A stretch of 33,183 nt of DNA from Micromonosporaceae bacterium (GTDB lineage Bacteria > Actinomycetota > Actinomycetes > Mycobacteriales > Micromonosporaceae), in NCBI GenBank assembly GCA_019690055.1, contig JADGGF010000002.1:1-33183 (forward strand). Reading direction: 5' to 3'. The notes beneath the pieces are model-generated. The model was not told the DNA's origin. It did no database searches and was given only the letters and a program-made list of their open reading frames with translations. Made by a program: the position numbers and the translations under genes. Positions 3,416-26,847 of this stretch are shown here, in pieces; position 1 is the first letter of the stretch, and each line of letters starts with the position of its first letter.

Positions 3416-4989
<1,574 letters not shown>

Positions 4990-4993
<4 letters not shown>

Positions 4994-6330
4994 GCCGACC
5001 CGACCCCCTCCATGTGCTCGTTCGGCTCCAGCTCGTCCGGCCCGAACTGCTCCTCCTCGGTCGACCCGCGCAGCGCCACCGTCTCCGCGGCGGGGTTCAG
5101 CACGGTGCTGATCAGGTCGAAGTAACCGGTGCCGACCTCGCGCTGGTGCTTGACCGCCGTGTATCCGTACGCCTCGGCGGCGAACTCGCGCTCCTGCAGG
5201 GCGACGTACGCCGGCATGCCCTCGGCGGCGTAGCCGCGGGCCAGGTCGAACATCGAGTGGTTGAGCGCGTGGAAACCGGCCAGCGTGATGAACTGGAACT
5301 TGTACCCCATGTGGCCCAACTCGTTCTGGAACTTGGCGATCGTGGCGTCGTCGAGGTGCCGGCGCCAGTTGAACGACGGCGAGCAGTTGTAAGCGAGCAT
5401 CTTGTCCGGGTACTCGGCCTTGATCGCCTCGGCGAACTGCCGCGCCACGTCGAGGTCGGGCGTGCTCGTCTCCATCCACAGCAGGTCGGCGTAGGGCGCG
5501 TAGGCCAGACCGCGGGCGATGCAGGGCTCGATGCCGTTGCGGACCCGGTAGAAGCCCTCGGCCGTCCGCTCGCCGGTGACGAACGGGCGGTCCCGCTCAT
5601 CGACGTCGCTGGTGAGCAGCGTGGCGGCCTGCGCATCGGTCCGGGCGATGATGATCGTGGGCACGCCGGCGACGTCGGCCGCGAGCCGGGCGGCGTTGAG
5701 CGTCCGAATGTGGGCGCCCGTCGGCACCAGCACCTTGCCCCCGAGGTGCCCGCACTTCTTCTCCGAGGCGAGCTGGTCCTCCCAGTGCACCCCGGCCGCA
5801 CCCGCGGCGATCATCGCGGTCATCAGCTCGTAGGCGTTGAGCGGTCCGCCGAACCCGGCCTCGGCGTCGGCCACGATCGGCACCAGCCAGTCCACATCGG
5901 AGGTTCCCTTCTCGGCGACCTCGATCTGACCCGCGCGCAGCAGGGCGTTGTTGATGCGCCGCACCACGGCGGGCACCGAGTTGGCCGGGTAGAGGCTCTG
6001 GTCCGGGTAGGTCTGGCCGGCCAGGTTCGCGTCCGCGGCCACCTGCCAGCCCGACAGGTAGATCGCCTTCAGCCCGGCCCGGACCATCTGCACGGCCTGG
6101 TTGCCGGTGAGCGCGCCCAGCGCCCGGATGTACGGCTCCTCGTGCAGTAACCGCCACAAGCGCTGCGCGCCCCGGCGGGCCAGGGTGTGCTCCTCCTGGA
6201 CCTGCCCGCGCAGGCGGATCACCTGCTCCGGTCCGTACGTCCGCTGGACCCCCTGCCACCGCGGGTCGGTGGCCCACTCATGGTCGAGCTGCTCGGCCGC
6301 TCGGGCCTGGTCGATCGTTGCAGGCGGCAT
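4990..6330 (-). CDS. aceA: Isocitrate lyase
   Basis: 446 aa with [46 protein letters not shown] and [26 protein letters not shown], hallmark ICL motifs. Confidence 0.96.
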
Positions 6331-6447: not shown

Positions 6448-6487
6448 GGTTCCTTGGCAGACGGCCAACGTATGCTGGGTCGCACGT

Positions 6488-6541
6488 GTCAGGAAGGACG
6501 CCCTCCTGACGCCTGGTGCACAACAAGGCGTCCCTCCTGAC
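6488..6541 (+). repeat. Composite hairpin repeat, copy A
   Basis: GTCAGGAAGGACGCCCTCCTGACGCCTGGTGCACAACAAGGCGTCCCTCCTGAC; the first 23 nt form an imperfect palindrome with 10-nt arms. Same element in inverse orientation at 26656-26710. Confidence 0.85.
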
Positions 6542-6565
6542 ATCGGTCGTGGGAGGGGGTGACGG

Positions 6566-7960
6566 ATGAGCAAGACCTTCGCGGGCGCCCGATTGCGCCG
6601 CCTGCGCGAGGAGCGCCGGATGAGCCAGATCGAGCTGGCCCGCCAGCTGAACATCTCGCCGAGCTACCTCAACCAGATCGAGCACGACGCTCGCCCGCTG
6701 ACCGTCCCGGTGCTGATCCGACTCACCGAGGTCTTCGGGGTGGATACCGCCTACTTCGCGCCGCAGGACACCTCGCGGCTGGTGAGCGATTTGCGCGAGG
6801 CCCTGCCCGCCCGGGCGAGCCTGGCCGACCTGACCGAGCTGGCGACCAAGCTGCCGGAGGTGGCCGAGGCGGTCATCGAACTGTATCGACGCTACCGGCA
6901 GACCTCCGACCAACTCGCCGAGCTCGTCGGGGACCGCGACGCCGTGGCCCTGCAGTCGCCCCACGACCAGGTCACCGACTTCTTCTACCGACGGCAGAAC
7001 TACGTGCCGGAACTGGACGAGGCGGCGGAGGCCCTGGCCGCCCGGATCGGCATCCGGCCGACCAATACCCTGCCCGCGCTGCAGCGCCACATCACCGAGC
7101 GGCACGGGGTGCGCATCCAGCTCGACGACGCCGGCTCGATGGGCGGCGAGCTGCACCGCTACCGGCCGGGCACCAAGACGCTGCACCTGTCGACGTCACT
7201 GCGCCCCGGGCAGCAGGCCATCCGGATCGCGGCTCAGATCGGTCTGCTCGAGTATGCCGATATCATCGACGAAATTATCGAAGAGGAGCAGTACGACGAT
7301 CTGCAGACACGCATCCTGTTGCGGGTCGGGTTGGCGAACTACTTCGCGGCGGCGCTGATCCTGCCGTACGGTCAGTTCCTCGTGGCCGCGGAGGCTCTGC
7401 GCTACGACATCGAGCTGCTCACCGAGCACTTCGCGATGGGGTGGGAGAGCGTCTGCCACCGGCTGTCCACATTGCAGCGTCCGAAGGCCCGGGGGGTGCC
7501 GTTCTCGTTCGTCCGCGTGGACCGGGCCGGCAACATGTCCAAACGGCAGTCGGCCACCGGCTTCCCGTTCTCCCGGTCGGGCGGGACGTGTCCACTGTGG
7601 AACGTCTACGAGGCGTTCAGCTCCCCCGGGCGGGTCGTGACCCAGGTTGCGGCGATGCCCGACGGCCAGCGCTACCTGTGGATCGCCCGCACGGTCACCC
7701 GGCACCACGGCGGCTACGGGAAGCCCGGGAAGGTCTTCGCCATCGGACTGGGCTGCGAGCTGCGCCACGCCCCGCGGCTGGTCTACTCGGCCGGCGTGGA
7801 CCTCGACGCCGCCGGGGCCGCCACCCCGATCGGCCCAGGGTGCCGCACCTGTGAACGGCTGACCTGCCCGCAGCGCGCGGCCCCGCCGATTGGCAGCCGC
7901 CTGGACCTCGACGAGAACCGCAGCACCTTCGTCCCCTATCCGCTGCGGATCGACTCGTAG
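6566..7960 (+). CDS. ramB: XRE-family short-chain fatty acyl transcriptional regulator (RamB/ScfR type)
   Basis: N-terminal HTH (GARLRRLREERRMSQIELARQLNISPSYLNQIEHDARPLTVPVLIRL) followed by ScfR-like sensor region; divergent from aceA; C-terminal Cys cluster GPGCRTCERLTCPQRA. Confidence 0.88.
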   Translation: MSKTFAGARLRRLREERRMSQIELARQLNISPSYLNQIEHDARPLTVPVLIRLTEVFGVDTAYFAPQDTSRLVSDLREALPARASLADLTELATKLPEVAEAVIELYRRYRQTSDQLAELVGDRDAVALQSPHDQVTDFFYRRQNYVPELDEAAEALAARIGIRPTNTLPALQRHITERHGVRIQLDDAGSMGGELHRYRPGTKTLHLSTSLRPGQQAIRIAAQIGLLEYADIIDEIIEEEQYDDLQTRILLRVGLANYFAAALILPYGQFLVAAEALRYDIELLTEHFAMGWESVCHRLSTLQRPKARGVPFSFVRVDRAGNMSKRQSATGFPFSRSGGTCPLWNVYEAFSSPGRVVTQVAAMPDGQRYLWIARTVTRHHGGYGKPGKVFAIGLGCELRHAPRLVYSAGVDLDAAGAATPIGPGCRTCERLTCPQRAAPPIGSRLDLDENRSTFVPYPLRIDS

Positions 7961-10508: not shown

Positions 10509-10667
10509 GGTGACAACTCCTCCGCTCGGTGTCGGCGTCGCCACCAACCCTAGGCCCACTCGACGGCGGCCCCGCTGCACGGCCAGGTGATCTCTGCCAT
10601 TCCCGACCCAGGCGTACGATTCAGCCCAGCCGTCGCAGCTGTCCCGGGCGTCCCGGCGCCACGGAGC

Positions 10668-10748
10668 CACAGTGGTGGCCGGAGGCCACAGGACCACAGT
10701 GGTGGCCGGAGGCCACAGGACCACAGTGGTGGCCGGAGGCCACAGTGA
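10668..10748. repeat. 27-bp tandem repeat, 3 copies (third imperfect at its end)
   Basis: CACAGTGGTGGCCGGAGGCCACAGGAC x2 then CACAGTGGTGGCCGGAGGCCACAGTGA; contains CCACAGTGG and GGCC-GGA-GGCC dyads. Confidence 0.95.
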
Positions 10749-25980: not shown

Positions 25981-26640
25981 TCACCCCGCGAGCGGTTCGA
26001 CAATCTCACCGTTGTCGGGGATGCCCTCCTCGACCAGGTGCGGCTGGGCGGCTCCGCGCGACCACAGGCGGTACGAGCGAAAGGCCAGCGGTACCCCGCG
26101 AGCGCGGTAAGGATCGACGGAGTCCATGGCCTGGATGTGCAGGTGCGGCTGCGTCGAGTTGCCCGAGTTTCCGCAGGCGCCGAGCGTTTGGCCGGCGACG
26201 ACCGGGTCCCCCACCGCCACCCGGATGGAGCCGGCCCGCAGGTGGGCGAGCAGGACGTACACCCCGCCGTCGAGCTCAAGGATCACATGGTTGCCCGCGA
26301 TGGCGCCCGGCCCTTGGCGCACGCGCCCGGCCTGGCTCAGCGCGTACGGGATCAGGGCGAACGGAGACCGGCGGGCCTCGTGGTCGGGCTCGCCATCGTG
26401 CACCGCCGCGACCCGGCCGGGCGCGGGCGCGAGGATGGGCTGGCCGTAGCCCACGAAGCGCTCCGGCGGCTCCACCGAGAACAGGGTGCGCCAGTCCACG
26501 GCGCTGGCCGTCCGCCGCCCGTGCACAGCCACGAAGTCGATGGCGTAGGTCGTGGCGAACAGGTGCGTCCCGTGGCTGGGGATCCGGCGGGCCGGACTCA
26601 TCTGGGCCAGCCAGCGCCCCTGAAACGGTAGGGCCAGCAC
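25981..26640 (-). CDS. M23-family peptidase (LytM-like)
   Basis: SHGTHLFATTYAIDFV; ILAPAPGRVAAVHDG; GNHVILELDGGVYVLLAHLRAGSIRVAVGDPVVAGQTLGACGNSGNSTQPHLHIQAM (HxH). GTG at 26640 proposed; longer ORF to 26823 is a read-through of repeat plus GNAT remnant. Confidence 0.85.
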   Translation of the reverse strand: MLALPFQGRWLAQMSPARRIPSHGTHLFATTYAIDFVAVHGRRTASAVDWRTLFSVEPPERFVGYGQPILAPAPGRVAAVHDGEPDHEARRSPFALIPYALSQAGRVRQGPGAIAGNHVILELDGGVYVLLAHLRAGSIRVAVGDPVVAGQTLGACGNSGNSTQPHLHIQAMDSVDPYRARGVPLAFRSYRLWSRGAAQPHLVEEGIPDNGEIVEPLAG

Positions 26641-26655
26641 GACGGCCGGCCTCGG

Positions 26656-26710
26656 CGCAGGAAGGCGTCCTTCCTGGTCATTGGGCGTCAAGAGGGCGTC
26701 CTTCCTGAAC
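26656..26710 (-). repeat. Composite hairpin repeat, copy B (inverse orientation to copy A)
   Basis: Minus strand: GTTCAGGAAGGACGCCCTCTTGACGCCCAATGACCAGGAAGGACGCCTTCCTGCGCC; contains perfect palindrome CAGGAAGG-CGT-CCTTCCTG (26658-26676). Confidence 0.85.
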
Positions 26711-26711
26711 A

Positions 26712-26847
26712 GTGAGGCGATGGCGGGGGCGTTGTCGGTCTCCACTCCGAGGCTAATCACGCGGGGCAGGTCGAATCGGTCCGCCAGCCACGCCTCGGCC
26801 GCCCGCATCAGGGCGGTAGCCACGCCCCTGCGGCCGCACCTGTCCCT
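26712..26847 (-). pseudogene. Truncated GNAT acetyltransferase remnant
   Basis: RCGRRGVATALMRAAEAWLADRFDLPRVISLGVETDNAPAIASLF: GNAT motif A-like plus following helix, missing both the N-terminal half and the C-terminus; ends at the repeat. Confidence 0.7.

Follow-up and report, generated by a model that had tools for sequence, protein, structure and literature searches.

A REP-like double-palindrome repeat family of a Micromonosporaceae genome and its copy in the predicted leader of a ramB-like gene

Proteobacteria are the group from which REP-type repeats are best known. The REP and BIME sequences of E. coli are located at gene 3' ends, are rare in divergent gaps and are presumed to have a role at the 3' ends of mRNAs. 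The open-licence literature searched contained neither the exact form of the arm sequences described below nor anything on point that joins REPs with Micromonosporaceae. In the survey of CGTC REPs by Di Nocera et al. 2013 (PMC3733652), these repeats are assigned to five phyla, Actinobacteria not among them, and TGTC is given as a variant of the CGTC tag. The survey places REPs in intergenic regions 3' of genes, within unidirectional or convergent gaps, and describes GTAG REPs whose termini provide stop codons.

Structure and abundance of the element

The window (the whole 33,183-nucleotide stretch of contig JADGGF010000002.1 that was analysed) belongs to a Micromonosporaceae genome, G000, a 4.85 Mb draft of 782 contigs that is 94% complete and is the one genome representing its genus. 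The initial annotation had reported a hairpin repeat, copy A, at 6488-6541, with a reverse-complement partner, copy B, at 26656-26710; the sequence, the position and the partner are all confirmed. Copy A forms a 51-nt inverted repeat with 26658-26708, 76% complementary, and no other inverted pair in the window is as long. Two small corrections apply: the conserved element, GTGTCAGG...CCTGACAY, is slightly longer (~58 nt), and the part described as a loop and a right arm includes a second palindromic unit 31 nt from the first. The features are:

6486..6543, plus strand: copy A, a 58-nt double-palindrome element with a 52-nt core, TCAGGAAGG...CCCTCCTGA, plus GTG/CAT ends
6490..6508, plus strand: 5' palindromic unit of copy A, CAGGAAGGACGCCCTCCTG
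6521..6539, plus strand: 3' palindromic unit of copy A, CAACAAGGCGTCCCTCCTG, 31 nt downstream of the 5' unit
26654..26711, minus strand: copy B, the element of copy A on the minus strand

Copy B either precedes an M23-peptidase ORF (25981-26823, minus strand) or lies in the 5' portion that was called for it. The window's contig has no family members beyond these two. The window also contains a tandem repeat of three ~27-nt units (GGTGGCCGGAGGCCACAGGACCACAGT) at 10647-10745.

The 19-nt unit pattern CAGGARGGNCGYCYTYCTG, with one mismatch or none, has 139 matches in G000 (61+78) compared to 0 for the reversed control, and a longer 24-nt unit pattern has 177 (83+94) compared to 7 (3+4). The likeness of copies A and B is thus not due to chance. 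Mapping over 71 genome stretches (246 kb) yielded 79 complete elements, 76 of which have exactly 52 nt between the TCAGG and CCTGA arms. The original description of a dispersed, structured, REP-like element is therefore strongly supported, with about 80 or more copies in the genome.

The element is a double palindrome, in which two AGGAAGG-nnn-CCTTCCT units about 31 nt apart can also pair with each other into one long hairpin. Each unit has a stem of 7-8 bp, with G-C as the second pair, and the triplet as its loop. The consensus in G000 is GTG-TCAGGAAGGACGCCCTCTTGACGCC-loop-CCCARGAAGG(ACG or CGT)CCTTCCTGA-CAC. Most arm columns are 97-100% conserved among the 79 elements, the loops are variable, and the 3' triplet is ACG in about half of the copies and CGT in about half. 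Outside the element, TGTC is found at 48 of the 79 5' ends and 57 of the 79 3' ends, and CGTC at 4 of each. A search of Rfam with the element returned sub-threshold hits only, with no match above the gathering score.

Copy A is able to form one long hairpin because its triplets, ACG and CGT, are complementary. The predicted energy of this hairpin is -20.3 kcal/mol, compared to -5.4 kcal/mol for two short hairpins, and the folding of both copies is stronger than that of shuffled sequence (z = -4.4 and about -3.5 for copies A and B, respectively), in agreement with the structured character first ascribed to them. Neither the long nor the short hairpins show covariation among the copies in G000, so that within this genome the structure is unproven by compensation.

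Placement relative to genes and comparison with known repeats

Genes were called by a simple codon-bias procedure; the calls are rough, and the choice of start codons, if anything, biases against an intergenic or stop-adjacent result. The intergenic bias that had been proposed as a check is nevertheless evident: 53 of the 62 placeable copies in G000 are intergenic, though coding sequence makes up about 86% of the total (binomial p about 3e-36). Of the intergenic copies, 17 are between convergent genes and 8 between divergent genes. A copy is present in 17 of 23 convergent gaps, compared to 36 of 99 gaps of other types (p = 0.002, indicative only, the loci having been selected for the element). 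Copies in tandem gaps are mostly nearer to the upstream stop codon (22 of 28, p = 0.004), and the tendency to adjoin stops recurs in three other genome sets.

Fourteen genes have their 3' ends inside a copy, mostly in one frame and at one position, and about 11 of them acquire the tail ...SGRTPS* or a close variant. Genes of G000 that end within a copy with a tail of this type are found at C529_619, C148_8880, C579_3220, C632 and C775, and further ones at C743, C65, C766 and C485. Where genes end outside copies, the median distance to the copy is 21 nt. A few copies do not follow the pattern: some are in ORFs, and one is in the ramB leader.

These placement habits are those given for CGTC REPs by Di Nocera et al. 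(PMC3733652), which lie between genes, past gene ends, where the gap is unidirectional or convergent. Further similarities to the repeats described there are the short palindromes with ~8-bp stems, the frequent dimers, the convergent copies near stop codons, the stop codons provided by repeat termini (a trait of GTAG REPs there) and the lack of a dedicated transposase. The variant tag TGTC stands outside many G000 elements, as counted above, but the outer end of the element depends on the genus (CGTT, CGA or TAC). The stem described for CGTC REPs (8-9 bp, A-T in the first two positions, loop of 4-5 nt) is not the one found here, the G000 loop having 3 nt and its second stem pair being G-C. Like REPINs and GTAG REPs, the family has two inverted REP-like units in one long hairpin, an extragenic location and a lineage-specific abundance, but it has no GTAG tag, and the RAYT (Y1) transposase associated with REPINs was found neither in the 94%-complete G000 nor in the complete genome G331, from another genus. 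The 3'-end location, the scarcity in divergent gaps and the presumed role at mRNA 3' ends are shared with E. coli REP/BIME, whose sequence is unrelated and which form mosaic arrays, whereas here the dimer is fixed at 52 nt. Actinobacterial intrinsic terminators without a U-tract are likewise GC-rich hairpins just past stop codons, often between convergent genes. Unlike them, the present elements are one repeated sequence family, some members of which occupy a 5' leader or ORFs. The family is a REP-dimer, or REPIN-like, repeat.

Copy A in the predicted ramB leader

The genes and candidate signals around copy A are:

3416-4993, minus strand: malate synthase A gene, following aceA
4990..6330, minus strand: aceA, isocitrate lyase, divergent from ramB
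6471..6476, plus strand: possible ramB -10 box, TATGCT (TANNNT type), predicted by reading the sequence and its alignment to relatives
6550..6558, plus strand: purine-rich ramB ribosome-binding region, with partial complementarity to copy A's 3' arm
6566..7960, plus strand: ramB-like regulator gene (HTH, Peptidase_M78 and ScfRs domains; NF038139 at 639.6 bits, below its 700-bit cut-off)

The ATG of the ramB-like gene is 24 nt past position 6541, as previously noted. With a predicted transcript start near 6483, copy A would be at the 5' end of the ramB mRNA, between the candidate -10 box and the ribosome-binding site. A comparison of orthologous loci, suggested together with the original description, supports an insertion near ramB: the aceA-ramB gaps of 14 related genomes lack the element, and their leaders are about 60 nt shorter. 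Copy A is therefore explained most simply as an insertion.

It is plausible that copy A affects ramB. Sequestration of the ribosome-binding site was considered and rejected. The unpaired probability of the site is 0.28 with copy A, compared to 0.25 with shuffled elements and 0.34 with the element deleted from the leader; a translational switch is unsupported, since the accessibility is similar in all three. The modelled hairpin at the 5' end of the predicted ramB mRNA could stabilise or attenuate the message.

Relatives, mobility and origin of the family

Among 354 other Micromonosporaceae genomes, the exact GGACGCC version of the element is all but missing. The exception is G159, from a different genus, in which one 2.5-kb contig has a copy split by ~270 bp. 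The split of this G000-type copy (contig C293; L203 1-420) is in the loop, and the contig may be real or contaminating. A genus-wide family, as first suggested, is conjectural with one genome in the genus. Several other genera have elements of homologous architecture in which the triplets differ; the exact version is known from one further genome only. The generic palindrome RGRAAGGNNNCCTTYCY has 92 matches in G107, 86 in G331, 58 in G334 and up to 32 in some Micromonospora, and is at background level in most genera. A core length of 48 nt is common to different genera. The central triplets are ACG/CGT in G000, GCA/TGC in G107, GCC/GGC in G331 and Micromonospora, and CCC/GGG in G521/G443, which belong to a different family of the same order; they are complementary in 10 of 11 elements of G107 and in 20 of 25 of G331. 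One convergent site, orthologous among species of genus g9, has GCA/TGC in some of them and GCG/CGC in G114, and pairing across the element therefore appears to be kept between species. Six species have the element at this site, and three (G110, G111 and G113; L223, L224 and L225) have an unrelated perfect hairpin (GGCGGCCGGGTGACC...) in its place.

Pattern matches differ sharply between sister species (86 in G331, 4 in G332 and 3 in G333). Two G331 sites aligned with G332/G333 gave no clean empty site: one has a possibly decayed look-alike in the sisters and the other a larger deletion. No plasmid or phage copies were matched. A link to RAYT was tried and rejected: PF01797 was found neither in the 94% of G000 that the draft covers nor in the complete G331, and the Y1 genes of other genomes have no strict palindrome units next to them.

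The label MITE, also given in the initial annotation, implies a cut-and-paste transposon that is non-autonomous, has terminal inverted repeats (TGTCAGGAAGG) and depends on an IS transposase acting in trans. Inverted ends, a fixed length and abundance in one genome would all suit such an element, but match lengths in the flanks of the elements equal those in shuffled flanks, no IS with these ends was found among the loci read, and the copies are at gene 3' ends and not at random intergenic places. With target-site duplication no more frequent than chance predicts, and no autonomous partner seen, the label is unsupported, and such an origin is improbable. A stronger competitor, though still an unlikely one, is that the elements are native bidirectional terminators which never moved and are similar by gene conversion or convergence. 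The 3'-end placement, the exchange for an unrelated hairpin at the g9 site and the possibly decayed look-alike in a sister species all agree with this. Nevertheless, native terminators have no structural need for loops that are alike across copies, and they do not readily account for copies inside ORFs or within the leader of ramB, or for the jump in copy number between G331 and its sisters.

The near-invariant arms, together with loops and some paired positions that vary without compensation, could instead point to a DNA-level binding site for a nucleoid, replication or supercoiling protein, the hairpin being incidental. We give this little credence, as the bias towards stop codons and the complementary triplets across genera point to a function of the RNA or hairpin. 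That the family is an artefact of assembly or contamination is hardly credible: the 782-contig draft and the several copies at contig ends might raise the suspicion, but the copies are distributed over more than 60 contigs, where their unique flanks differ, and complete single-contig genomes such as G331 have the same architecture.

We consider it probable that copy A belongs to a lineage-specific REP-dimer family of bidirectional 3'-end hairpins, copied without target duplication, and that it is an off-pattern insertion in the ramB leader which alters the ramB mRNA. When transcribed, the elements would form a strong, symmetric hairpin, acting as a two-way factor-independent terminator or as a barrier to 3' exonucleases; the 3'-end hairpins are probably terminators or mRNA stabilisers. 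The elements would spread by copying that leaves no target duplication. Copy A, having landed off-pattern in the predicted 5' leader, may then change the stability or level of the ramB mRNA and with it the regulation of the glyoxylate-shunt genes aceA/aceB.

The relatives have central letters of their own, and the family is therefore, by the open-licence literature searched, apparently an undescribed actinobacterial branch of a known bacterial repeat class. A bolder proposal is possible but doubtful: that these are undescribed actinobacterial double-palindrome terminator repeats with constant arms and genus-switched complementary triplets, spreading without RAYT or target duplication and donating stop codons and C-terminal tails to host genes, and that copy A has become a new 5'-leader control element of RamB, the glyoxylate-shunt regulator. 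Since many sequenced genomes contain the family, and sister species differ so sharply in copy number, its spread, homogenisation and terminator role are directly testable, and the ramB leader offers one concrete gene whose control a repeat may have changed.

In genus g9 a further palindromic repeat (GATGATCGCCGTTT...AAACAGCGATCATC) is also dispersed, and lies between or beside the hairpin elements in G107 (L192 6230-6330, L187 and L191). One G107 copy of the hairpin element, at L193 around 940, is seemingly in frame inside an ORF, like an insertion in the protein.
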